A stretch of DNA of 37,357 nucleotides from positions 1 to 37,357 of IMG/VR virus record IMGVR_UViG_3300025030_000271, one strand, 5' to 3'. Of this stretch, positions 18,692-35,439 are shown piece by piece. Below the pieces are notes generated by a model. The model was not told the DNA's origin and ran no database searches. It saw only the letters and a program-made list of their open reading frames with translations. Position numbers and translations under genes: made by a program. The DNA is from a virus. How positions within the stretch are numbered: the first letter of the stretch is position 1; every line of letters starts with the position of its first letter.

Positions 18692-18750
18692 TACCAGATT
18701 AGACACCTACTGGGTGCAGTTCGCCGTTTTTTAGGGGGTCTACTTCACGT
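18692..18750 (+). repeat. 59-bp attI-like repeat, copy 1
   Basis: Identical over 59 bases to 24762-24820 and, inverted, to 35381-35439. It contains GATTAGACAC, the short palindrome CACCTACTGGGTG, a T6 run, and a TTAGGGGGTC element 18 bases ahead of the core site, like a second binding site for an integrase. The core at the cassette junction here reads GTCGGGG, one base off the GTTGGGG of the other copies. Cassette DNA begins right after the G of this core. Confidence 0.9.
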
Positions 18751-19084
18751 CGGGGGTCTCTTCCCATCGCTGATCAATACTTTCATCTGGCTTCGCTGGG
18801 AGGGCCACCCAATAAAGCACGTCCTCCACGTAGTTGTCGTCCCACCCGTAGCCGGTCGGTATCGTTGGCCCGCCCATGCCGAGCGGGTCTTCGCGCTGTA
18901 GCGCCCATGTGTCCACGGTGGGATGTCCTTTCGTGTCGCGGCTGTAGCGCACCCACACTGCGCAAACCGTGTCCGGCTCTGGAACCCTCTCGTCCATTGG
19001 CACCCAGGCCCCCAACCTGGCGCTCAACTCGGACGTGCCGCTCGATGCTTCGTTCGTCGCTTCAGCGTTTTCCATCGTCATCAC
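18740..19084 (-). CDS. Cassette A1 gene, DUF551-like protein
   Basis: A 114-residue protein. Residues 27-105 (WVPMDERVPEPDTVCAVWV ... VEDVLYWVALPAKPDE) match the DUF551 pattern W-x-P-x-x-E-R-x-P ending in a W-x-x-L-P motif; function unknown. The start, with AGGAGTG before ATG, lies inside the loop of attC A1. The first residues (NEASSGTSELSARLGA) are therefore encoded by the recombination site, and the stop TAG lies inside the 59-bp repeat. It is antisense to attC orientation. Confidence 0.7.
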   Translation of the reverse strand: MMTMENAEATNEASSGTSELSARLGAWVPMDERVPEPDTVCAVWVRYSRDTKGHPTVDTWALQREDPLGMGGPTIPTGYGWDDNYVEDVLYWVALPAKPDESIDQRWEETPDVK

Positions 19085-19131
19085 TCCTTGTTTGTTCCGT
19101 GGGCGGCACGCCGGTTAACTTCACGTTCGGC
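19010..19131 (+). other. attC site A1
   Basis: R'' CCCCAAC (19010-19016), spacer CTGGC, L'' starting GCTCAAC, a long loop with inverted repeat CGTGCCGC/GCGGCACG, L' GGTTAAC, spacer TTCAC, R' GTTCGGC (19125-19131). It ends cassette A1, whose leading core is GTCGGGG, one base short of complementing this R''. The loop is nearly the same as in attC B2 and carries the start of the antisense gene. Confidence 0.8.
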
Positions 19132-19132
19132 G

Positions 19133-19483
19133 TCACACAGCGCCTAGCATCGCGGGTGGTGCCCACGTCGAAATGCCATCTATGATCTGCTGTATCTGTT
19201 CCTCCTCGTCGGAGTTCTCTGCTTCGAGCGTTGCCAGTACCAGCGCGGCGCGGTCGGCGAACTTCGCCAGTTCGGTCAGGTGGTGCCGCACTCGCCGGCC
19301 TTCGATCCGGTACGCCGCGCCCTCGCATTGCCGCGCGCAGGTGTCGCCCTGCCGCAGCATTGCGTTCTCGCGCTCAAGCTCGCGGCACAGTTCCGTCAGC
19401 GCCCTGTGCTGCGGTCCCAAGTCCCACCCTGCTTCCAGGGTCGCGCCAAGTGCTGCGCTTGTTCGTGGTGTGTCGTTGCTCAT
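19133..19483 (-). CDS. Cassette A2 gene, coiled-coil protein
   Basis: A 116-residue protein with helical heptad-like stretches (TELCRELERENAMLRQ and LAKFADRAALVLATLEAENS) and two Cys in CARQCEG. I start at ATG 19483 with GGAGGAAAC upstream. Phages and mobile elements often carry such small coiled-coil proteins; no function can be named. It runs leftward against the attC orientation, and its stop lies two bases from the cassette's leading core site. Confidence 0.6.
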   Translation of the reverse strand: MSNDTPRTSAALGATLEAGWDLGPQHRALTELCRELERENAMLRQGDTCARQCEGAAYRIEGRRVRHHLTELAKFADRAALVLATLEAENSDEEEQIQQIIDGISTWAPPAMLGAV

Positions 19484-19498
19484 GTTTCCTCCAGTGCC

Positions 19499-19582
19499 GG
19501 CCAACCCATCGGTCAACCTTCGTTCGCTTCGCTCACCGGACTGCGCAAAAGCAGCGCAGCCGGGTTACCTCAACCGTTAGAG
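19499..19582 (+). other. attC site A2
   Basis: R'' GGCCAAC (19499-19505), spacer CCATC, L'' GGTCAACC with extra C, loop with CGTTCGCTTCGCTC and a CTGCGC/GCGCAG stem, L' GGTTACC, spacer TCAACC, R' GTTAGAG (19576-19582). The arms pair well. R'' does not complement the cassette's own leading core GTTCGGC, which instead matches the R'' of attC A3. Confidence 0.78.
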
Positions 19583-19839
19583 CGCATGGCCTTGATCTGC
19601 CCAAGCTTGCCCTTCGCCTGTTCGAGTCTCATGCGTAGCGAGGAAACATCGCGCTCCGCCTTGGCGACCAAAAATGCGTGCGCCGCCTCCCATGTGTCGT
19701 GCCAGTTACTCCAATCGGAAACCTTGTTCTCGCGACTGCTACGGAATCCATTATTGGCCGGAAGAACAACCTGCTTGTCCGTCTCGCGCTCAACTTCCAG
19801 CGCCTCAATCTTGTTGAAACTCGTTCTGTACTTAATCAC
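19570..19839 (-). CDS. Cassette A3 gene with its own start
   Basis: An 89-residue protein from GTG 19839, preceded by AAAGGAACCGAA. It shows a beta start (IKYRTSFNKIEALEVERETD), then SDWSNWHDTWEAAHAFLV and a helix RLEQAKGKLGQIKAM. Proteins ending in this W-x-x-W-x-D-T-W...A-E-R...L-x-x-A pattern recur in environmental sequences, as I recall, without known function. This was presumably the gene before fusion; the same bases also form the end of the 234-residue frame. Confidence 0.6.
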   Translation of the reverse strand: MIKYRTSFNKIEALEVERETDKQVVLPANNGFRSSRENKVSDWSNWHDTWEAAHAFLVAKAERDVSSLRMRLEQAKGKLGQIKAMRSNG

Positions 19840-20274
19840 TTCGGTTCCTTTCAAAAGTCGGCTCTCGCAACACGCCGAACCCGGCGCTCGAAGGGATCTG
19901 CGCGATAAGTCCTGCGCAGCCCCCTCAGCTTGAACGTTGGGGGTCTTCAGTGTTTCCAAGTGCTTCAGCGCCCCCCCGACGAAATACGCGGAGAACTCAA
20001 ATTCGTTCGCATAGAACGCAACCTCGCCGGTCATCGCCACTGGCTCCCACCGCTCATTTACCCTCGTCGCGCAGCCAAACAGTCGGGAAAAGCCTTCTGC
20101 GTTCGGGTCGCTGCGGTCTTCGGTGTCGTATTCCTTGTGCCAAAGCGTGCCATCTGATCGAATCTCGTACTGATCGAGCCATTGCGCCGGCGTGTCTTTG
20201 GTCTGGTATTCAAGCGCCGCCGCGCCTTCGGCTGGCAACGGGTAGTGACACCGCAGGTAGTCAAACATTCCCAT
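19570..20274 (-). CDS. Fusion of cassette A4 and A3 genes across an attC
   Basis: A continuous 234-residue frame. Residues 1-110 (MGMFDYLRCHYPLPAEGAAA, a small mixed protein with YANEFEFSAYFVGG) come from cassette A4. Residues about 111-145 (KTPNVQAEGAAQDLSRRSL) are encoded by attC A3 read antisense. The rest is the cassette A3 protein (NWHDTWEAAHAFLVAKAERDV ... MRLEQAKGKLGQIKAM). ATG 20274 has GAGAGGAACAAG before it. The attC thus serves as an in-frame linker. Translation could also restart at GTG 19839. Confidence 0.6.
   Translation of the reverse strand: MGMFDYLRCHYPLPAEGAAALEYQTKDTPAQWLDQYEIRSDGTLWHKEYDTEDRSDPNAEGFSRLFGCATRVNERWEPVAMTGEVAFYANEFEFSAYFVGGALKHLETLKTPNVQAEGAAQDLSRRSLRAPGSACCESRLLKGTEVIKYRTSFNKIEALEVERETDKQVVLPANNGFRSSRENKVSDWSNWHDTWEAAHAFLVAKAERDVSSLRMRLEQAKGKLGQIKAMRSNG
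19874..19942 (+). other. attC site A3
   Basis: R'' GCCGAAC (19874-19880), spacer CCGGC, L'' GCTCGAAGGG, loop with a CTGCGC/GCGCAG stem, L' CCCCTCAGC, spacer TTGAAC, R' GTTGGGG (19936-19942). Sixty-nine bases. The two cassette genes on either side read through it in frame. Confidence 0.82.
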
Positions 20275-20296
20275 CTTGTTCCTCTCCGGGGGAAAC

Positions 20297-20366
20297 CCCC
20301 AACTCTGCGGTGCAGGGGACGCCGCGCGGTGAAGCTGCGCAGCACCCCTGACCTTGCACGTTATGC
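20297..20366 (+). other. attC site A4
   Basis: R'' CCCCAAC (20297-20303), the exact complement of its cassette's leading GTTGGGG at 19936. Spacer TCTGC, L'' GGTGCAGGGG with one extra base, L' CCCCTGACC, spacer TTGCAC, R' GTTATGC (20360-20366). Confidence 0.85.
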
Positions 20367-20657
20367 AGCAACGTCAGCACGTTGTTTCTCCCACTCTTCT
20401 TGCGCCGCATTGCAGCACAGAGGCCCGTCAGCGTCTTCTTCCCACTCGCGCCCGCAAAGGCTGCATTGCTCTTGGTACTCGCGTTCGACATTCAGGCTCA
20501 CCGGGTCTTGTGATCTGTGGTCGCGTACGAATTCCTCGAAGTCTCGGCACCATTCCTCAAGCCGTTGCGCCCGGTCTTCCAGCGTCTTCGACCAGCGTCC
20601 TACCGAATACGGCGGATCGCATGTCACGTTCAAATTCACCAGCACTTTCTGTTTCAT
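20361..20657 (-). CDS. Cassette A5 gene, Cys-rich small protein
   Basis: A 98-residue protein from ATG 20657 (GGAGAAGGCT before it). It has an N-terminal beta strand (KQKVLVNLNVTCDPPYSVG), a charged helical middle (TLEDRAQRLEEWCRDFEEFV), and CSLCGREW with a later CC pair that could form a zinc site. The stop codon is formed by the core site GTTATGC read antisense. Confidence 0.62.
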   Translation of the reverse strand: MKQKVLVNLNVTCDPPYSVGRWSKTLEDRAQRLEEWCRDFEEFVRDHRSQDPVSLNVEREYQEQCSLCGREWEEDADGPLCCNAAQEEWEKQRADVAA

Positions 20658-20676
20658 AGCCTTCTCCAAAAATGCT

Positions 20677-20745
20677 GCATAACCCATCGTTCGAGCGGAG
20701 CTTCGCCATAATGCCGGCGAATCCCGCTCAACTCAGACGTTAGCA
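20677..20745 (+). other. attC site A5
   Basis: R'' GCATAAC (20677-20683) exactly complements its cassette's leading GTTATGC at 20360. Spacer CCATC, L'' GTTCGAGCGG with extra C, L' CCGCTCAAC, spacer TCAGAC, R' GTTAGCA (20739-20745). Confidence 0.87.
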
Positions 20746-20746
20746 G

Positions 20747-21670
20747 TCAACATCTTGAACGCCGGCCGCAGCCGCCACCACCGCATCCGCCTCCGCTGTA
20801 GCTCTGGGCGCTTGTTTGCACCGGCGTCGAAACGAGGCGCTGCGCCTGCGGTCTCGGAGCAAGCGTGAGCGGCGTCTTCATTCCCCAGTCTGCATACACG
20901 TTGCCATCCGGGTGGATCACCGCTTCGTATATGCCGCCGGTCTGTAGCGAAGGCTCTGCAACTGAACCCTTCCACCGCACGGCAAAACCGTTTAGCTGTT
21001 GCTCCATCCCTCGGCAAACCGGGCATTTCGTTTCGTTCAGCACGCCATACTTCGCCGCAAAGATTGATTCCGTTGCTGTCGGCGTCGCATCGCCCGCAAC
21101 TTTGCGGAAACTCACGGCGTCGGCACCGAGGTCTTTGGCGTAGTCAATGAACTGGCCGCAGAAAGCAACTGAAACGTCAGCCTGAACTACGCAGTTAAAC
21201 GTTACGTCGCATGCCGTTTCCCCGTGCAAACGCAAGATCATGTCGCGCAGTGCATCGTCTGTCGGCGTCTTGTCGGTTTTGAACACGTCGCGGTTTGCGG
21301 CCGTGCCAATGGCGTGCCGGCTGATATTGACGTGATCGACGACGCACCCAACGGCGGTAACGAAAGGCAACAAGTTGCCCCCATGCGTTGTAAGCACAAC
21401 CCGTTCAAGCTGGTGGCTTCGGCGGTATTGTCCGAGCCGCGCCAAAACCTTGCCAAACCACGGGCTCAGTGTCGGCTCGCCACCCGATATGCTCAACACC
21501 CGGAACGCATCAGGCAGCCGGGCAAGGTGCGAAAACAACCGATCCAAGTAGTCGGCAGGCGGCCTAATCTTTGCCTCGTCTCGGTTCCAAAAACAGAAGT
21601 CGCACGAGGCGTTGCAACTACCTGGCAGCATCAGGGTTGTGTTCGGCCCGTAGGGGTTCGTTATCTTCAT
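20747..21670 (-). CDS. Cassette A6 gene, radical SAM protein
   Basis: A 307-residue radical SAM enzyme. The cluster motif GSCNASCDFCFWNR gives C-x3-C-x2-C near residues 18-25, and the SAM-binding GGEPT follows at about 64. A later CPVCRG near 227 and a C-terminal Gly/Cys-rich tail (SGGGCGGGGCGRRSRC) suggest further metal binding or an unusual modification function. No substrate can be inferred and there is no evident peptide partner next to it. It is by far the most elaborate enzyme carried in array A and is antisense to attC. Confidence 0.8.
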   Translation of the reverse strand: MKITNPYGPNTTLMLPGSCNASCDFCFWNRDEAKIRPPADYLDRLFSHLARLPDAFRVLSISGGEPTLSPWFGKVLARLGQYRRSHQLERVVLTTHGGNLLPFVTAVGCVVDHVNISRHAIGTAANRDVFKTDKTPTDDALRDMILRLHGETACDVTFNCVVQADVSVAFCGQFIDYAKDLGADAVSFRKVAGDATPTATESIFAAKYGVLNETKCPVCRGMEQQLNGFAVRWKGSVAEPSLQTGGIYEAVIHPDGNVYADWGMKTPLTLAPRPQAQRLVSTPVQTSAQSYSGGGCGGGGCGRRSRC

Positions 21671-21696
21671 TTCGGTCTCCGTAGCAGCAGCAAGAC

Positions 21697-21755
21697 TGCT
21701 AACAAGTCATTCCACCGGACGGCCTTCGGCCGCGCGGTGAATTCCGGCGTTATGC
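21697..21755 (+). other. attC site A6, classic 59-base form
   Basis: R'' TGCTAAC (21697-21703) exactly complements its cassette's leading GTTAGCA. Spacer AAGTC, L'' ATTCCACCG with extra C, loop GGCCTTCGGCC, L' CGGTGAAT, spacer TCCGGC, R' GTTATGC (21749-21755). It is 59 bases long, like the classic 59-base elements. Confidence 0.9.
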
Positions 21756-21896
21756 CTCATCGTCGTCATCCAGTTCTTCGAGGCGCATCTTCCAGCCCTC
21801 AGCAATCGGGGCGAGAACCTCCATCAACTCGCGCTCGTCCCCGACATACCGCGATAGCGCGGCATCTATCGCCTTCAAAACTTCCTTTGCATCCAT
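21750..21896 (-). CDS. Cassette A7 gene, 48-residue acidic protein
   Basis: A short frame from ATG 21896, with GGAGAACGGC before it: MDAKEVLKAIDAALSRYVGD, then a helix and an acidic end (LEELDDDDEA). The stop is created by the core GTTATGC read antisense. Fully helical, function unknown. Confidence 0.5.
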   Translation of the reverse strand: MDAKEVLKAIDAALSRYVGDERELMEVLAPIAEGWKMRLEELDDDDEA

Positions 21897-21916
21897 GCCG
21901 TTCTCCAGTGTTAGAG

Positions 21917-21934
21917 GCATAATTCACGTTGGGG
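21917..21934 (+). other. attC remnant A7
   Basis: GCATAAT (21917-21923) is one base off the R'' expected from the cassette's leading GTTATGC. It is followed directly by TCAC and the core GTTGGGG (21928-21934). L'', loop and L' are missing, so this attC appears to have lost its interior and could not fold; cassettes A7 and A8 would now move as one. Confidence 0.6.
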
Positions 21935-21935
21935 G

Positions 21936-22142
21936 TCAATTCAGCCTCGCCCCGGCCGGTCCAATTTTTACAATGTCATCGGCCATGAATCCGTCCAGTT
22001 CTCCGAGCCTGATCGTTTCCTCAATCACGTCATCGCCGTCGCCGCGCAGGCGTGCGGCGCGCGTCACGAATTCGCGGAACGTCAGCCCTTCGTCTGTCAG
22101 TTTTTTTGCCACAACTGTTATAGCGTCAAGTGCTGTTATCAT
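21936..22142 (-). CDS. Cassette A8 gene, small helical protein
   Basis: A 68-residue protein (MITALDAITVVAKKLTDEGL) with a basic helix FVTRAARLRGDG and an acidic end. ATG 22142 is preceded by GGAGACAGGAA. No family recognised. It lies antisense to attC, with its stop beside the leading core site. Confidence 0.55.
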   Translation of the reverse strand: MITALDAITVVAKKLTDEGLTFREFVTRAARLRGDGDDVIEETIRLGELDGFMADDIVKIGPAGARLN

Positions 22143-22154
22143 TTCCTGTCTCCT

Positions 22155-22391
22155 TCAAAAGCCGGCGCTGGCGGTACGGCGACCCCAACCCGGCGTTCCA
22201 GCGGAGCCTCCGGCGATAAGGCCGGTGACTTCTACGTTATGCCGATGCCCTACTATCTGCCCGTTTCGTACTGTGATGGTCGTCCGGCACTTTGAACAGC
22301 GGTAGCGTTGACCTTGTTCTCGACCTGCCTTTGCAGCGCATTGGCCCCTTGCGTGCCGATACCATTTACCTCCACATGGGCAGGGTGTCAT
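22155..22391 (-). CDS. Zinc-ribbon protein with attC-encoded tail
   Basis: A 78-residue protein. Residues 4-38 contain CPCGGKW, AKAGREQGQRYRCSKC and a TTITVRNG end, a small zinc-ribbon. Its ATG overlaps the replication-protein stop (22388-22391), so it belongs to the early operon. After GHRHN (about residue 52) it reads into attC A8, giving a 27-residue tail (VEVTGLIAGGSAGTPG and on). The native end was therefore replaced when the array inserted. Confidence 0.65.
   Translation of the reverse strand: MTPCPCGGKWYRHARGQCAAKAGREQGQRYRCSKCRTTITVRNGQIVGHRHNVEVTGLIAGGSAGTPGWGRRTASAGF
22183..22242 (+). other. attC site A8, array end
   Basis: R'' CCCCAAC (22183-22189) exactly complements the leading GTTGGGG of its cassette. 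Spacer CCGGC, weakly paired L''/L' arms, an inner CTCCGGCG/GCCGG loop, spacer TTCTAC, R' GTTATGC (22236-22242). Beyond this core, native phage sequence resumes within the zinc-ribbon gene. Confidence 0.75.
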
Positions 22392-22771: not shown

Positions 22772-23199
22772 TCTTTACCCCTTATGCCTTTACTATCTGC
22801 CCCCGAGCCGAAGGCGAAGCAGTCTTTATCCCGTGAAGGGTCTGCCTTTACGCCATCTGCTCAGGGTCTGCCCCGTCGCGTCAGTTACGATTCGTCAGCC
22901 TTGCTGGGTGCCCGTGCTGACTTCGCCGCGAGCCGCTCTGTTCCATCCCATTATCCCCGCAGTGAGCTTTGCGTATTGGCCGCTGCGAGTTACCCCCTCC
23001 AGCCGATACCTGGCGTGTTGCGCCAAAGCCAATGTTGCCGGGGCACGACATTCCAATCAATAGCCGGATCGTTGAAAATTGCGTCATGGTATTCACTACG
23101 ACTTGTAATTGTTTTTACTACAGCCTTGTAATTGTTTTTACTACAGCCTTGTAATTGTTTTTACTACAGCTAATGTCATATTTATCGGCAAGATTGCCA
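22772..23199. other. Non-coding stretch, possible origin region
   Basis: A 428-base interval in the early operon with no convincing gene on either strand; frames here lack ribosome sites and have unlike-protein composition. It contains three tandem 23-base AT-rich repeats at its right end. At 22782-22802 it has a TTATGCC...TACTATCTGCCC block that recurs at 22239-22262. Position next to the replication-type gene and iteron-like repeats make an origin the best guess. Confidence 0.4.
23102..23170 (+). repeat. Three tandem 23-base AT-rich repeats
   Basis: Three identical consecutive units at 23102-23124, 23125-23147 and 23148-23170, each starting CTTGTAATTG and containing TTTTTACTACAG. Perfect identity suggests recent expansion or functional constraint. 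They are iteron-like and lie upstream of the replication-type gene. Confidence 0.9.
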
Positions 23200-24761: not shown

Positions 24762-24820
24762 TACCAGATTAGACACCTACTGGGTGCAGTTCGCCGTTTT
24801 TTAGGGGGTCTACTTCACGT
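24762..24820 (+). repeat. 59-bp attI-like repeat, copy 2
   Basis: Identical to copies 1 and 3 over 59 bases, and shares five more bases (TCCAT) on the left with copy 3. The core is GTTGGGG at 24819-24825. It separates ninB from cassette B1. In copy 3 the bases around TACCAGATTAG form the last codons of a native gene; here they do not, suggesting this copy derives from elsewhere. Confidence 0.92.
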
Positions 24821-25277: not shown

Positions 25278-25364
25278 CCCCAACCCGGCGCTCAACCTCG
25301 CTCCCTTCGGTCGCTGGACGCTGCGCGATAAAGCCGCGCAGCGCCGGTTAGCTCTACGTTGGGG
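25278..25364 (+). other. attC site B1
   Basis: R'' CCCCAAC (25278-25284), spacer CCGGC, L'' GCTCAACC with one extra C, loop with CTCCCTTCGGTCG and a GCTGCGCG/CGCGCAGC stem, L' GGTTAGC, spacer TCTAC, R' GTTGGGG (25358-25364). A textbook attC; the extra base in L'' fixes rightward orientation. Confidence 0.93.
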
Positions 25365-25696
25365 GTCATCTGCGCACGCCCGAATTCCGTCAGTTCCGCA
25401 ACGTACTCGGTATATCCGCCAGCGGCATCTCGCGGTTCGTACCGGAGCAGCCCGGCATCCAGCATCCGTTCGGCCATGATGTATGTCGGTGAGCCAAGGC
25501 TGCCAGCCCCGCGCCCGTGAACGTGCATTTGCGTTGGGGTATTCTTCACCCACTCGCAGGCCCTCGGGTTCGACAGCCTCCGCAGCCACTCACGCATGGC
25601 CGGTGTGATAGCCCGCTTCGTGGTCAAGACCCCCAACCCGTCGTCCAACGCGGACGTGCCGCTCGATGCTTCGTTGTTGCTCGGTGCGTTATCCAT
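25292..25696 (-). CDS. Cassette B2 gene, antisense, unknown protein
   Basis: A 134-residue protein from ATG 25696 inside the loop of attC B2. Residues 8-22 (NEASSGTSALDDGLGV) are encoded by attC. The body (ITPAMREWLRRLSNPRACEW ... MLDAGLLRYEPRDAAGGYTEY) looks like a small winged-helix-like unit. The tail (TPNVELTGAARLYRAA) is attC B1 read antisense. It runs with phage transcription. Confidence 0.6.
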   Translation of the reverse strand: MDNAPSNNEASSGTSALDDGLGVLTTKRAITPAMREWLRRLSNPRACEWVKNTPTQMHVHGRGAGSLGSPTYIMAERMLDAGLLRYEPRDAAGGYTEYVAELTEFGRAQMTPNVELTGAARLYRAASSDRRERG

Positions 25697-25753
25697 GTTC
25701 AATCTTCTTTTGTGGCGTCCGTGGGCGGCACGCCGGTTAACTTTGCGTTGGGC
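25631..25753 (+). other. attC site B2, array end
   Basis: R'' CCCCAAC (25631-25637) exactly complements the leading GTTGGGG of its cassette. The long loop carries CGTGCCGC/GCGGCACG like attC A1, then L' GGTTAAC, spacer TTTGC, R' GTTGGGC (25747-25753). Native phage sequence follows. Confidence 0.82.
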
Positions 25754-31476: not shown

Positions 31477-31565
31477 GCCGAACGTAGAGCTAACCGGCTC
31501 ACGGGCGGCCTTATCGCCCGTGAGCCCAGAGAGCGAAGCGAACGAGGTTGAGCGCCGGGTTGGAG
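31477..31565 (-). other. attC site C7, array end
   Basis: On the minus strand: R'' CTCCAAC (31565-31559), spacer CCGGC, L'' GCTCAACC with extra C, loop with CGTTCGCTTCGCTC and a GGCTCACGGGCG stem, L' GGTTAGC, spacer TCTAC, R' GTTCGGC (31483-31477). R'' exactly complements the cassette's leading GTTGGAG. Confidence 0.92.
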
Positions 31566-31621
31566 GTAACGGGCCATGACACTGGACGAATACCTCACGG
31601 AATGCGAGCTGCCAGAGAACC

Positions 31622-31903
31622 TCATGCCGTACCGCCGGGCGTTGATGTCCTTAGCTTGTGAAGCGCGGCGATGTGCTCTTGTGTCTTCTCGCTCGTGCAC
31701 AGATGGCGAAGCAGCCCAATGGTGCCGGCAGCAGCCACTCGCGATGCTTGAGCATGGCGTTGCTGGTGCATTGCTAGGATGTCGTCAATGGCTTTCGCGT
31801 TTGCTACGCCAGTCATTACCACGACATCTATCAATGTTCTGGCGATGTCTATCAACGCGACTTCGGTTTCAGAAGGCTGCGGCGGAATTGGAAATTCACT
31901 CAT
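31622..31903 (-). CDS. Cassette C7 gene, helical protein
   Basis: A 93-residue protein (MSEFPIPPQPSETEVALIDI) with amphipathic helices (ARTLIDVVVMTGVANAKAID) and a basic end. It is in standard cassette orientation. The core site GTTGGAGGT lies nine bases before the ATG and doubles as its ribosome site. Function unknown. A frame on the opposite strand is its shadow. Confidence 0.65.
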   Translation of the reverse strand: MSEFPIPPQPSETEVALIDIARTLIDVVVMTGVANAKAIDDILAMHQQRHAQASRVAAAGTIGLLRHLCTSEKTQEHIAALHKLRTSTPGGTA

Positions 31904-31913
31904 GTGTAGTTAC

Positions 31914-31983
31914 CTCCAACGACAGAGTGGAGGGGCGCGACGCAGCCTTATCGCGGCGCGTCCCTTCGCACGACGGGTTGTGC
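31914..31983 (-). other. attC site C6
   Basis: Minus strand: R'' GCACAAC (31983-31977), spacer CCGTC, L'' GTGCGAAGGG with extra C, loop with a CGCCGCGATAAGGCTGCGTCG-like stem, L' CCCCTCCAC, spacer TCTGTC, R' GTTGGAG (31920-31914). R'' exactly complements GTTGTGC at 33308-33302, which fixes cassette C6 as one 1.3-kb unit. Confidence 0.88.
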
Positions 31984-32006
31984 GGCAACGTAACTACGGA
32001 GAACGA

Positions 32007-32039
32007 ATGAATGAGTTGGCTCTTTTCGCAGGCGCTGGT
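32007..32039 (+). pseudogene. 5' remnant of a C5-methyltransferase gene
   Basis: ATG 32007, with GGAGAACGA before it, begins MNELALFAGAG, the start and motif I of a C5-cytosine methyltransferase, and then diverges. The same protein motif recurs intact at the methyltransferase start (residues 12-20) 0.55 kb downstream, with different synonymous codons. The nuclease gene between them has evidently split off this original 5' end. Confidence 0.7.
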
Positions 32040-32068
32040 ATAATGAAGCCGCTTATTCGGGAGGCTTC

Positions 32069-32563
32069 ATGGAAACCAAGCGGTGCAGCAAATGCGGTAA
32101 CGATCTACCGCTATCTGCGTTTTACCAGCGCACAGGCGCAAAATCGCACCACTCAGCTTGCAAGGTGTGCGAGCGCGCAATGGCAAAGGATTGGTACGAG
32201 CGCAACAAGGACAAGGCAACAGCCAAGGTCAAGGAGTGGCGGCAACAGAATAGCGATGCCGTCAAGCAGTACCGGGCCGACAACAGGCAGAAGCACTACC
32301 GGCAAGAGCTTGGCAGGAAATACGGCGTTGAGCCATCTTGGTTCGACGAGCAGTTACAGCGCCAAGGCAATGCGTGCGTGTGCTGCAAGCGCCAATTCCA
32401 GTGGGGCGGCAAGCAAACCACGCCGCATGTTGATCACTGCCACAACACCAAAGCGATTCGCGGAATTCTCTGTAACCGATGCAACACCGTTCTTGGCTTG
32501 TGCGAAGACGACGACAAGTTGCTTTCGGCTTTGGCGAGGTATCTGAGGAAATGTCATGGCTGA
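32069..32563 (+). CDS. Endonuclease VII-type HNH nuclease
   Basis: A 164-residue protein with an N-terminal zinc finger (RCSKCGNDLPLSAF ... CKVCERA) and a C-terminal recombination-endonuclease-VII core (CVCCKRQF, VDHCHNTKAIRGILCNRCN, LGLCEDDDKLL). GGGAGGCTTC precedes its ATG. This type acts as a freestanding homing endonuclease in phages. It sits inside the start of the methyltransferase gene of cassette C6 and overlaps the restored start by eight bases. Confidence 0.85.
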   Translation: METKRCSKCGNDLPLSAFYQRTGAKSHHSACKVCERAMAKDWYERNKDKATAKVKEWRQQNSDAVKQYRADNRQKHYRQELGRKYGVEPSWFDEQLQRQGNACVCCKRQFQWGGKQTTPHVDHCHNTKAIRGILCNRCNTVLGLCEDDDKLLSALARYLRKCHG

Positions 32564-33374
32564 TAAGTCGGGCGCTGATGGAGGATTACGCGAACTCGCG
32601 CTCTTCGCTGGGGCTGGTGGCGGAATACTCGGGGGCAAGCTGCTCGGGTGGCGAACCGTTTGCGCTGTTGAGCGTGATGGATACGCCGCACAAGTTCTGG
32701 CACAGCGGCAAAACGATGGATGCCTTGAGCCTTTCCCGATTTGGGCTGACGTGTGCAGTTTTGACGGAAAGCCTTGGGCTGGAATTGTTGACGTTGTTTC
32801 GGGCGGCTTTCCGTGCCAAGACATCAGCAGCGCGGGGAAAGGCGCAGGACTCGACGGCGAACGCTCTGGCCTCTGGCGCGAAATGGCCCGGATCATTGGC
32901 GAGGTTCGACCGCGATTCGTTTTCGTGGAGAACTCCCCAATGCTCACTCTTCGAGGACTCGGAGCCGTGCTTGGAGACTTGGCCGCGATGGGGTTTGATG
33001 CACGGTGGGGAGTGCTGGGAGCTTCCGCCATTGGCGCACCGCACCGAAGAGAGCGAATCTGGATTGTTGCCTACGCTGACCCTGATTTCGTGCGAGCACC
33101 CTGGACGTTTCAAGCGCAAAGACGGGCAACAGACCTGCATAAGCATGGAGTTGGCGAAGCGGGACAACTGGGAAGCTGGTGGGAAGTACAACCCGAACCA
33201 TGCAGCGTGGTTTATGGCATGGCCGGAGTGGTGGACAGACTTAGGCCATTCGGCAACGGACAAGTACCGTCTGTGGCGGCAACGGCATGGCGGATTTTGA
33301 CGCACAACGTAGAGCTAACCGGCTCCGGGCAGGTTCATCGCCCGGAGTCCAGCGACCGAAGGGAGCGAGGTTGA
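32556..33374 (+). CDS. C5-cytosine DNA methyltransferase (cassette C6)
   Basis: A 272-residue Dcm-family enzyme: motif I LALFAGAGGGILGGKLLGW, motif IV SGGFPCQDIS with the catalytic Cys, motif VI region FVENSPML, motif VIII GAPHRRERIW, and a late NGQVPSVAATAW. The usual E-N-V is E-N-S here. It is short, with a small target domain. Residues 250-272 (NVELTGSGQVHRPES) are encoded by attC C5. It may protect phage DNA from host restriction. No partner restriction enzyme is present. Confidence 0.82.
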   Translation: MADKSGADGGLRELALFAGAGGGILGGKLLGWRTVCAVERDGYAAQVLAQRQNDGCLEPFPIWADVCSFDGKPWAGIVDVVSGGFPCQDISSAGKGAGLDGERSGLWREMARIIGEVRPRFVFVENSPMLTLRGLGAVLGDLAAMGFDARWGVLGASAIGAPHRRERIWIVAYADPDFVRAPWTFQAQRRATDLHKHGVGEAGQLGSWWEVQPEPCSVVYGMAGVVDRLRPFGNGQVPSVAATAWRILTHNVELTGSGQVHRPESSDRRERG

Positions 33375-33388
33375 GCGCCGGGTTAGGG
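33302..33388 (-). other. attC site C5
   Basis: Minus strand: R'' CCCTAAC (33388-33382), spacer CCGGC, L'' GCTCAACC with extra C, loop with CTCCCTTCGGTCG and a CTCCGGGC stem, L' GGTTAGC, spacer TCTAC, R' GTTGTGC (33308-33302). Closely similar to attC B1. R'' has one mismatch to its cassette's leading GTTAGAG. Confidence 0.9.
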
Positions 33389-33436
33389 CGCCACCGGGAA
33401 AACAGACCAGCGGCGCTTAGAAAAAAGAGGGAACGA

Positions 33437-33637
33437 ATGCTTACGATAGAGCGAGGGAAGGCGCTAGACAACGAGATCATGAGGGCGATGGCAATCCCGA
33501 TCCGCACAGAACAAATGCTGCACGGTAAAGGGCTGATTGTTGTGCAGTGGATTGCGGAGGACCCAACGGTAGCCGGGTATGAGTTCTTGGCTGAGTACAT
33601 TGCTATGCGAATAAAGGCCATGCGCTCTAACGTGTAG
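33437..33637 (+). CDS. Cassette C5 gene, small helical protein
   Basis: A 66-residue protein from ATG 33437 with GAGGGAACGA before it (MLTIERGKALDNEIMRAMAI, then LIVVQWIAEDPTVAGYEFLA). The last residues (MRSNV) and stop lie in attC C4. It runs with the early operon, antisense to attC. Function unknown. Confidence 0.6.
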   Translation: MLTIERGKALDNEIMRAMAIPIRTEQMLHGKGLIVVQWIAEDPTVAGYEFLAEYIAMRIKAMRSNV

Positions 33638-33747
33638 GTGAGGCGCGGCCCCACCGCGGAAGGAGAAACGAAGTGACAACGACAAAGACACCGCAGGACG
33701 CAAACGAAGGCACGATAGGGGCCGTCGCCTCGACCGCCGGGTTGGGG
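33625..33747 (-). other. attC site C4
   Basis: Minus strand: R'' CCCCAAC (33747-33741), spacer CCGGC, L'' GGTCGAGGCG with extra C, a long loop carrying the start of the antisense gene, L' CGCCTCACC, spacer TACAC, R' GTTAGAG (33631-33625). R'' exactly complements its leading GTTGGGG. Confidence 0.86.
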
Positions 33748-34377
33748 GTACCGACCACTTGCAGAGATGCGTTCGTTGCGATGGTGAGGGACGAGAATTT
33801 CTACCGCGAGGCGTGGTCAAGATGGTCGCTGAAGGCACACTGGACAGGTGCAGTAGGCGGGTTTGCCGACGAAATGTTGCAAAAGCGGTGGAAGGATTTT
33901 CAGGCTGGATGGTGCGCATGCACCCCCAACGCAAAAGTCAGCGGTGGCGGAACGCCGTCCGCTGGACTGCCGGGTTCGACCACTGCACCGACGAAGGATA
34001 GAACTGAAATGCCGAAATGTGGAGGTCGTGAATACTGCACGCGGATGCCTTTTTGCGGCTGTGGCGGTCCGACCGAGGAAGAGATAGACGAAGACGCGCT
34101 GGAGCGCTTCACGAAGGCGATGCGCGTAAAACTGGCGGCGTCCAGAGCCAAGGGGCGGCACGGATGGCACAACCCAGATGTTTGCAGCGTCGAGGATTTG
34201 GCGCGAATGTTTTTCGATCATGTTGCAAAGGGCGATCTGGTCGACATAGCAAACTTTGCGATGTTTCTTCATCAGCGCAAGGGCCGCCCGGAGACTTGGC
34301 GGCTCACTCACCCCGACACATGGGGTGAGGGGTCGAACGTAGAGCTAACCGGCGCTGCGCGCCACGAAAGGGAGTAA
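33673..34377 (+). CDS. Fusion of cassette C4 and C3 genes across an attC
   Basis: A continuous 234-residue frame from GTG 33673 with AAGGAGAAACGAA before it. Residues 1-25 (NEGTIGAVASTAGLGV region) are encoded by attC C4. Residues 26-84 are the C4 protein (FVAMVRDENFYREAWSRWSL, then FADEMLQKRWKDFQAGW). Residues 85-110 (TPNAKVSGGGTPSAGLPGS) are attC C3 read antisense as a linker. The rest is the C3 protein. The end (GSNVELTGAARHERE) comes from attC C2. Confidence 0.65.
   Translation: MTTTKTPQDANEGTIGAVASTAGLGVPTTCRDAFVAMVRDENFYREAWSRWSLKAHWTGAVGGFADEMLQKRWKDFQAGWCACTPNAKVSGGGTPSAGLPGSTTAPTKDRTEMPKCGGREYCTRMPFCGCGGPTEEEIDEDALERFTKAMRVKLAASRAKGRHGWHNPDVCSVEDLARMFFDHVAKGDLVDIANFAMFLHQRKGRPETWRLTHPDTWGEGSNVELTGAARHERE
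33924..33980 (-). other. attC site C3
   Basis: Minus strand: R'' GTCGAAC (33980-33974), spacer CCGGC, L'' AGTCCAGCGG with extra C, short loop, L' CCGCTGACT, spacer TTTGC, R' GTTGGGG (33930-33924). R'' exactly complements GTTCGAC at 34338. At 57 bases it is compact and fully open in the antisense frame. Confidence 0.9.
34009..34377 (+). CDS. Cassette C3 gene with its own start
   Basis: A 122-residue protein from ATG 34009 with GAAGGATAGAACTGAA upstream. It opens MPKCGGREYCTRMPFCGCGG, a Cys-rich knuckle, then an acidic segment (EEEIDEDALERFTKAMRVKL) and WHNPDVCSVEDLARMFFDHV, a pattern that I recall from small phage proteins. It can be translated alone or as part of the 234-residue fusion. Confidence 0.62.
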   Translation: MPKCGGREYCTRMPFCGCGGPTEEEIDEDALERFTKAMRVKLAASRAKGRHGWHNPDVCSVEDLARMFFDHVAKGDLVDIANFAMFLHQRKGRPETWRLTHPDTWGEGSNVELTGAARHERE

Positions 34378-34454
34378 GAGCGATGACGATTGAGAAACCA
34401 CAAGATTCAGTAGCGCCTACGGGCGCAGCGTCCGCGTTGAGCGCCGGGTTGGGG
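34332..34454 (-). other. attC site C2
   Basis: Minus strand: R'' CCCCAAC (34454-34448), spacer CCGGC, L'' starting GCTCAACG, long loop with GGCGC/GCGCC elements, L' GGTTAGC, spacer TCTAC, R' GTTCGAC (34338-34332). R'' exactly complements the leading GTTGGGG of C2. Confidence 0.86.
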
Positions 34455-34503
34455 GTCCGAACCATGAAGAAGGAAAGCGACATGACTGTGTTTGTTGGTG
34501 GCA

Positions 34504-34812
34504 TTACTTGGGTAGACCAAGCGTGGCCCGAAGCTCTGCCAGAAGACCCTCGATTGAGGCTTCGTATTCTTGCTGGAAGGCTCCGAGTTCACTTGGGTCT
34601 ATGCCTAGGAATACTTTCGGCGCCGTTGGCAATTTCGGCAGCCATGCTTCTTGAAGTTCTGCGAGCACTTGTTCGGGCGGTGACGAGGAACGGCGAATTA
34701 CTGTGGCTAGAGCGGTTAGCAGTAGCGTTCGCTGGGCGTTCATTTGGCCCACGGTTTTGTGTCGGGACTCTTCAAGACGCCGGACACGATCTTCAAGGGA
34801 AGGCTGATTCAT
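34504..34812 (-). CDS. Cassette C2 gene, helical protein
   Basis: A 102-residue protein starting seven bases after the core's G run (MNQPSLEDRVRRLEESRHKT, a coiled-coil start, with LLLTALATVIRRS in the middle). Standard cassette orientation. Helical throughout, function unknown. A long frame on the opposite strand (34383-34901) is considered its shadow. Confidence 0.65.
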   Translation of the reverse strand: MNQPSLEDRVRRLEESRHKTVGQMNAQRTLLLTALATVIRRSSSPPEQVLAELQEAWLPKLPTAPKVFLGIDPSELGAFQQEYEASIEGLLAELRATLGLPK

Positions 34813-34819
34813 CTAAGAC

Positions 34820-34887
34820 CCCCAACGTTCAAGATAACCGGGCTTCGCGGCCTTATCGCGAAGCTCCGGTTGATCGCAGGGTTGGGG
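34820..34887 (-). other. attC site C1
   Basis: Minus strand: R'' CCCCAAC (34887-34881), spacer CCTGC, L'' GATCAACC with extra C, loop with CTTCGCG/CGCGAAG stem, L' GGTTATC, spacer TTGAAC, R' GTTGGGG (34826-34820). R'' exactly complements the leading GTTGGGG next to repeat copy 3. Confidence 0.92.
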
Positions 34888-34901: not shown

Positions 34902-35366
34902 TCAAGGCGCTTTCTTTGTGGCTGGACCGGAAGATGGGACTACCGCCTGGGTGGGGGGTGCCGATTGTGCTGTGGGGGTTTGCGGTTGCGATGCAGTGGC
35001 TGGCGATTTTCCTTCAGGCGTTTTATCTGCCTTGGCTGCAAACCATACTTGCGCCCCTGTACCGATAAGCGAGGCAACCGTGAGAACGACAACAAGTTTT
35101 TGCAGTTTCGTGTTGCTCTCGTTCAGGTTGGTGATGTGGTCGTGAAGCTCCGTAACGTGACCTTGGAGAGTTTCAATGTGCGCACGTAGTAGATGGGTTC
35201 GGACTGTCTCGCAGATTTGCGGGAACTGGGAGGCGCCAAAATGTGAAGATGCTTGCGGGCGGCAAATGATCGCTGCGAAGTGCTCAAGGCGAGCTATCGG
35301 AAAGCGCGCGATTGCGCCGGAGTTAATGCTCTCTCTCACGTCGTCAAGATCATCTGAGATGCTCAT
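34902..35366 (-). CDS. Cassette C1 gene, membrane-anchored protein
   Basis: A 154-residue protein from ATG 35366, the first cassette after the attI-like repeat, in standard orientation. The N-terminal part is helical (SDDLDDVRESINSGAI), the middle a coiled coil (LQGHVTELHDHITNLNESNT). One membrane segment (LVVVLTVASLIGTGAQVWFA) follows at about 100-119, and then a Pro/Ala/Thr-rich tail. It may be a membrane-tethered surface or signalling protein. It follows the lysis operon in the same direction and could be expressed from it. Confidence 0.7.
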   Translation of the reverse strand: MSISDDLDDVRESINSGAIARFPIARLEHFAAIICRPQASSHFGASQFPQICETVRTHLLRAHIETLQGHVTELHDHITNLNESNTKLQKLVVVLTVASLIGTGAQVWFAAKADKTPEGKSPATASQPQTPTAQSAPPTQAVVPSSGPATKKAP

Positions 35367-35380
35367 TACTGAGACCCCCA

Positions 35381-35439
35381 ACGTGAAGTAGACCCCCTAA
35401 AAAACGGCGAACTGCACCCAGTAGGTGTCTAATCTGGTA
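35381..35439 (-). repeat. 59-bp attI-like repeat, copy 3
   Basis: Inverted relative to copies 1 and 2, identical over 59 bases. Its core GTTGGGG lies at 35382-35376. The outer bases encode the last residues and stop (LPD, TAG) of the DUF1353-like gene. After the short ACTG/CAGT stem and GGTG/CGCC pairing comes a T6 run, so it could also end the lysis transcript. Confidence 0.92.

Follow-up and report, generated by a model that had tools for sequence, protein, structure and literature searches.

The stretch of DNA analysed here (the window) is a 37,357-nt virus record with matches to terminase, head-tail adaptor, tail, single-strand annealing, and RecE-like proteins. Sixteen attC-like sites are spread over three arrays, with seven sites on the plus strand (31477–34887), two on the minus strand in array B (25278–25753), and seven on the minus strand in array C (19010–22242). 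No match to the integron-integrase (TIGR02249) was found in the record, which may be incomplete. By these matches, the window is a phage record in which three integron-type attC arrays occur without an integrase.

In the usual description, each integron cassette brings a complete reading frame, and attC sites separate the cassettes and serve for recombination. An attC is recognized by an R′ box, GTTRRRY, at the crossover and an AAC-containing R″ partner. The sites of the window were chosen by eye and from repeats, and then scored in leave-one-out fashion with a two-arm weight matrix (PWM). Their scores ranged from 21.5 to 55.9, whereas the maximum in 50 shuffled windows was 20.0, a value that the two weakest sites (21697 and 19499) barely exceed. 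The L″ and L′ arms pair in all 16 sites, with stem scores of 4–7.5. Bottom-strand folding is most distinct in A5 (z -2.37) and A4 (z -1.95), while A6 (-0.80) and the sites at 25631 and 19010 (within -0.80 to -1.03) fold hardly better than shuffles. For comparison, viral contigs were collected with an 18-nt left-arm pattern and two right-arm patterns and then scanned for attC. A calling threshold of 22 yielded 115 distinct sites and a threshold of 20 yielded 126, and the totals given below differ for this reason. The base following GTT in the R′ box is a purine in 113 of the 126 sites (78 A, 35 G); that of A5 reads GTTCGAC. A single scan of genome contigs gave one match, to a Pirellulales MAG, without attC.

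The plus-strand array includes A1 (31477–31565), A2 (31914–31983), and A7 (34820–34887), and a methyltransferase frame (32556–33374) ends within A3 (33302–33388). In array C, the right arm of the site at 20297–20366 was placed by the scanner. The cassettes C4 and C3, which are the subject of this report, lie among A4 (33625–33747), A5 (33924–33980), and A6 (34332–34454). The DNA of A6 had no match in plasmid or phage records. Three cassettes of this array appear to carry their main gene on the opposite strand (34504–34812, 34902–35381, and 31622–31903, minus), including the cassette behind A6.

All three arrays end in a shared tail (18692–18726 and 24762–24796 on the minus strand, 35405–35439 on the plus strand), in which at least 35 identical nt come after a left-arm-like AACGTGAAGTAG (GACGTGAAGTAG in array C). 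A search of viral contigs with a 26-nt part of this tail found it in no other contig; the tail may be a common array end or an insertion boundary. Between arrays B and C lies a match to Rfam RF02932 (Betaproteobacteria-1 sRNA; 22890–23009, minus strand, 60.8 bits) that hints at a betaproteobacterial host. A tandem unit of ~23 nt with TGTAGTAAAAACAATTACAAG was also seen by eye at about 23100–23180 (minus strand).

The reading frame from A4 to A6

An earlier, sequence-only reading of this DNA had placed C4 and C3 in one 234-residue frame, and that frame is real. It begins with a GTG at 33673, ends with a TAA at 34375–34377 on the plus strand, has zero internal stops, and passes through the intact 57-nt A5 (attC C3 in that reading). 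Beyond what had been described, the GTG sits within A4 and the stop falls within A6. The frame is thus composed, in order, of a leader, C4, the A5 linker, C3, and an attC-encoded tail, NVELTGAARHERE.

At its front, A4 is a 123-nt site of a leader type described below (leave-one-out PWM 46.1, against the shuffle maximum of 20.0). Its variable loop holds the Shine-Dalgarno (SD) motif AGGAG (33661–33665) and, at a spacing of 7, the GTG. The 23 codons that follow, MTTTKTPQDANEGTIGAVASTAG (33673–33741), would form an N-terminal leader, the last codon of which ends exactly at the G^TT crossover between 33741 and 33742. Codon log-likelihood for this leader is 0.30 in frame, compared with -0.78, -0.02, and -0.41 in the other frames tested. 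The C4 gene body (33742–33927) has no SD-preceded start within 75 nt of the crossover, and its frame enters A5 with AAC read as a codon. A5 is attC-like by score (leave-one-out PWM 41.6) as well as by fold, its R′ box at 33974–33980 contains no stop, and its crossover (33974/33975) lies in codon phase 2. As the earlier reading had stated, the linker TPNAKVSGGGTPSAGLPGS is present in the translation, where it is encoded by A5 and its flanks. The C3 gene (33994–34377) follows with an SD motif of its own, AAGGA (33994–33998), and 10 nt further on the ATG at 34009 that had also been pointed out. At the far end, A6 is again a 123-nt site of the leader type (leave-one-out PWM 51.7), in which the stop of the frame is followed five nt on by an ATG at 34383, with a leader extending to 34448.

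Since no stop separates C4 from C3, translation initiated at 33673 would necessarily yield the fusion. Two products are predicted for the locus: the 234-aa fusion, started at 33673, and C3 as a protein by itself, started at 34009.

The same reading proposed that attC shuffles protein domains as well as genes. If so, the C4–C3 join would be a functional two-domain protein, and several features are consistent with this: no stop interrupts the frame across an intact attC, the linker is weakly coding (0.11 in frame versus -0.02, -0.38, and -0.40), and the window contains another through-frame. The latter, also of 234 codons (19573–20274, minus strand), crosses the attC at 19874–19942, whose R′ box is GTTCGGC; by eye, its downstream gene has an SD-like AAGGA and a GTG of its own in the same frame. 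The frequency of such joins argues against this reading. One frame with at least 40 open codons on both sides of the attC was found at 6 of 115 distinct sites (window plus scanned viral contigs), and the count at usable junctions (6 of 106) is not above the 9.1 ± 2.2 (maximum 16) obtained when upstream flanks were permuted 300 times. The join was therefore rejected as a recurrent product of domain shuffling. Homology argues in the same direction, since C3 has an SD-preceded start together with stand-alone homologues. C3 alone matches phrog_8298 (E 6e-21), phrog_16645, and phrog_5040, and homologues occur in 432 phage and 120 plasmid records, with only the C3 part matched. For instance, the homologue in phage LKO4 begins, by annotation, at about residue 13 of C3, two codons past the alignment point at residue 11. 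At other loci, the C3 domain occupies varied positions in longer proteins. Homologues of C4 were absent from the viral-contig and phage searches, no plasmid match among those listed reached C4, and none of the 120 plasmid records covers at least 80% of the fusion in one place. A functional two-domain protein is thus distinctly unlikely, and the join is most simply seen, on its sequence statistics, as a by-product without selected function. What survives of the proposal lies at the N-terminus, where an attC would add protein sequence in the form of the A4 leader. As for an assembly or sequencing indel in 33930–34008, raised in the earlier reading as a possible artefact behind the join, it is scarcely credible. 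In another viral contig (L055), the right arm of A5 is letter-identical over 23 nt and read in the same frame; there, the arm is followed by TTAG, at which the frame stops with the ending GGGTPSAGLPG.

The openness of the C4–C3 join can be related to reading phase. Of the 105 open upstream frames of at least 40 codons, 79 read AAC as a codon on entering attC. When the core length is divisible by three, which is so in 71 of 126 sites, the AAC frame meets R′ as GGT-TRR, the phase in which T-R-R can be a stop. An upstream gene in the AAC frame is present at 83 of the 126 sites, and these frames stop within the attC (54), stop in the R′ box (9), or pass (20). In phase 2, 7 of the 18 cases that reach R′ stop there. 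C4 is open into C3 because the R′ box of the C3 cassette, GTTCGAC, reads TCG where T-R-R is often a stop. Only at A5, the window site 19874, and L012:4957 do frames extend more than 50 codons beyond R′; the first two have GTTCG R′ boxes, and each of their frames extends over more than 100 further codons. A GTTC R′ box is also crossed at three further phase-2 sites, but the frames there meet a stop within 13 codons, so that loss of the R′ stop permits a join and does not make one. A5 has its crossover in phase 2, unlike the leader attCs (phase 0), and the C3 cassette read in phase 0 meets a stop after eight codons.

Leader-type attC sites

Leader-type attCs are 122–124 nt long, and 17 distinct sites are known from the window and the scanned contigs. 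Four are in the window, namely A4, A6, a site in array B (25631–25753, minus strand), and a site in array C (19010–19131, minus strand). The class was named after a length of 123 nt had been seen to recur, and a bin of 118–128 nt (17 distinct sites) was used for comparisons; the 17 are not independent, since their loops are partly homologous. Four of them (L035, L036, L040, and L041) were collected through leader-arm patterns. The leader start codon lies at attC position 48–57 (67 in L041), and all 17 frames reach the crossover between codons. An SD-like motif, either a listed motif or a clear equivalent, precedes the start by 3–12 nt in 16 of the 17. The exception is the array B site at 25631, where an ATG at attC position 57 has a weak SD and follows an upstream stop by 2 nt. 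A strong SD in all four window leaders was rejected, as the site at 25631 has no canonical one.

Past the crossover, the phase used by the leader is nearly always open. At least 50 codons are open in phase 0 at 16 of 17 leader sites, compared with 1 of 17 in phase 1 and 3 of 17 in phase 2; the corresponding counts in the other attCs (n = 109) are 40, 16, and 43. An SD-preceded start in the loop that reads at least 40 codons past R′ is present in 15 of 17 leader sites versus 8 of 106 others (Fisher p 8e-12). Conversely, an SD-start that belongs to the cassette itself and is no more than 75 nt from the crossover is present in only 4 of 17 leader-fed cassettes, versus 79 of 106 others (p 8e-5). 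Some leader-fed cassettes might instead use a TTG located at the crossover or a weak start codon shortly after it. Evidence for codon selection on the leader is weak, with a median NG86 dN/dS of 0.69 in the loop part (82 of 120 pairs computable) and of 1.62 in the right-arm part (111 of 120 pairs), where the hairpin also constrains bases.

Leader attCs also supply the end of the preceding gene. In the AAC frame, their translation gives a tail such as NVELTGAARHEKE, and the stop codon is found either within a few nt of the leader start or overlapping it as ATGA. This stop falls at -4 to +10 nt of the start in 15 of 17 sites, whereas shuffles gave a mean of 2.0 and a maximum of 8 (2000 trials). 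The exceptions are A4, with a stop 35 nt before the start, and the site at 19010, with a stop 14 nt inside the leader. Where a next attC was detected behind a leader-fed frame (n = 12), nine of the frames meet its AAC in frame and six stop inside it. Such cassettes lack a stop of their own and, bar exceptions (an own SD-start in 4 of 17 overall), no SD-start near the front.

Several leader-fed frames contain protein matches that begin just behind the leader. In L041, a Lar restriction-alleviation domain starts at residue 21, after a 17-codon leader (30.0 bits, cut-off 28.6). In L014, a Lar match starts at residue 26, after a 22-codon leader, and at 19010 in the window the leader of 23 codons is joined to a DUF551-like protein matched from residue 26 (E 0.059). 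The weak Lar and DUF551 matches of L014, L036, and the 19010 site, all below the Pfam cut-off, start 2–4 residues beyond the leader, and in L041, L014, and the 19010 site no SD-preceded start is found ahead of the match. Two other comparisons concern the crossover itself. The cassettes of L007 and L014 are homologous from there on; the corresponding residues are AMTHFWC in one and DATHFWC in the other, which has no start codon there. L008 and L025 share the same start-less cassette, with DNA 85–86% identical from the crossover, compared with 40% in the attC loop part of their leaders. To judge from the DNA, this pattern is what exchange at G^TT would leave, although the 17 nt before the crossover, which belong to the conserved right arm, are also 88% identical.

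The leader pattern might be put down to chance, as G+C-rich DNA with few stops would leave frames open in a small family of related loops. The loops are indeed related, and the same phase is open for at least 50 codons in 40 of 109 other attCs. When the loops were shuffled, an SD-start with readthrough was regained in only 274 of 3400 cases, as opposed to 15 of 17 observed, and the observed stop-start adjacency was never reached in 2000 shuffles. Moreover, where the core length departs from 123 nt by an indel (122 or 124 nt), the leader phase is kept intact. On the loop-shuffle and adjacency tests, chance open frames were rejected as the source of the class, and we regard this explanation as highly improbable. 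Another alternative is that the start in the 123-nt attC opens a short ORF only, whose translation would keep the hairpin unfolded and allow initiation to occur anew at the start belonging to the next cassette, the long fusions being incidental. Such a mechanism is described for attC short ORFs and for ORF-11 in the available text of PMC8876359, the upstream stop adjoins the leader start in 15 of 17 sites, and L017 fits, as its leader frame ends after 35 codons with a separate start behind. This account is unlikely all the same. It does not suit a leader phase that stays open in 16 of 17 sites, cassettes that mostly lack an SD-start of their own, or known domains that begin 2–4 residues beyond the leader.

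A further set of attCs of 91–99 nt (L038:9321, L039:2479, L029:758, L029:1167, and L012:751) has an SD-start that leads into the next cassette with the crossover in codon phase 1. These sites are perhaps a second leader convention.

Proposed translation across attC junctions and known systems

Together, the evidence favours a combined account, which we consider probable from the sequence, in which the ORF begins in the leader attC A4 and C4–C3 is an incidental readthrough at A5. Of the two parts, the leader attC is the stronger finding. From the anatomy, frames, and sequence statistics, we infer translation, reinitiation, and leader exchange by integrase as follows. In a leader attC, one half would provide the tail and the stop of the upstream gene, and the downstream gene would receive a Shine-Dalgarno motif, a start, and a hydrophilic leader of ~20 residues from the other half. 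Because the codon boundary at the end of the leader coincides with G^TT, any cassette that is open in this phase would need no start of its own to be translated. Where the stop overlaps the leader start as ATGA or lies within a few nt of it, ribosomes may pass from one gene to the next by termination-reinitiation or bind the SD afresh; at A4, fresh binding is likelier because the upstream stop lies 35 nt before the start. At the short A5, whose R′ box lacks a stop, C4 would simply be read through into C3.

More generally, we lean toward the idea that attC in this integron-array lineage is a translational junction module with standard frames on both sides, that cassettes can be bare gene bodies lacking both start and stop, and that each G^TT reaction swaps start and leader in addition to moving a gene. 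If this is true, the status of some cassettes as genes depends on their position: most attCs would leave them silent, a leader attC would allow their expression, and the N-termini of their proteins would change with each shuffle. Annotation would be affected too, with start-less ORFs missed or truncated. The model would also bear on how ribosomes get through arrays in spite of the attC hairpins, and on the use by phages of cassette pools that include Lar-like anti-restriction proteins. A search of open-access full texts revealed no account of attC sites from which translation of the following protein begins in frame.

The closest genomic setting is that of CALINs, clusters of at least two attC sites without integron-integrase, which have been reported in virulent phages (Qi et al. 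2023, PMC9892861). The window, with 16 attC sites and phage genes in a possibly incomplete record, likewise combines attC arrays with the absence of a TIGR02249 match, and has one DNA methyltransferase cassette, a kind also reported for the phage CALINs. In the available text of that study, no start codons or leaders in attC are reported, whereas the arrays of the window contain such starts and predicted leaders.

In class 1 integrons, fused cassettes such as ant(3'')-Ii/aac(6')-IId and blaGES-1/aacA4 join two cassette genes, sometimes into one bifunctional protein, as far as the available parts of PMC4670013 and PMC8876359 describe them. They arise by attC loss and have an intervening attC that is partly or wholly gone, whereas A5 is intact by its leave-one-out score of 41.6 and folds.

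A start codon within a recombination site is known from ORF-11 of attI1 in class 1 integrons, which acts by coupling according to the available text of PMC8876359 and PMC4670013. Common to both systems are an SD-start in the recombination site and a frame that runs over the crossover, with the R′ bases (often TAG) supplying the stop in ORF-11. It sits in attI, beside the integrase gene, serves the first cassette only, and terminates. In contrast, the leaders described here lie in attC loops within arrays of a record without a detected integrase, are repeated through those arrays, and are mostly open into a start-less cassette. A nearer parallel is a short ORF in attC associated with termination-reinitiation (PMC8876359, citing Jacquier et al. 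2009), with which leader attCs share an upstream stop adjoining a start inside the attC. In the available account, that ORF ends before the start of the next gene, which restarts, whereas the leaders described here, L017 excepted, read on for at least 50 codons (16 of 17) and would form part of the next protein, always in the same phase.
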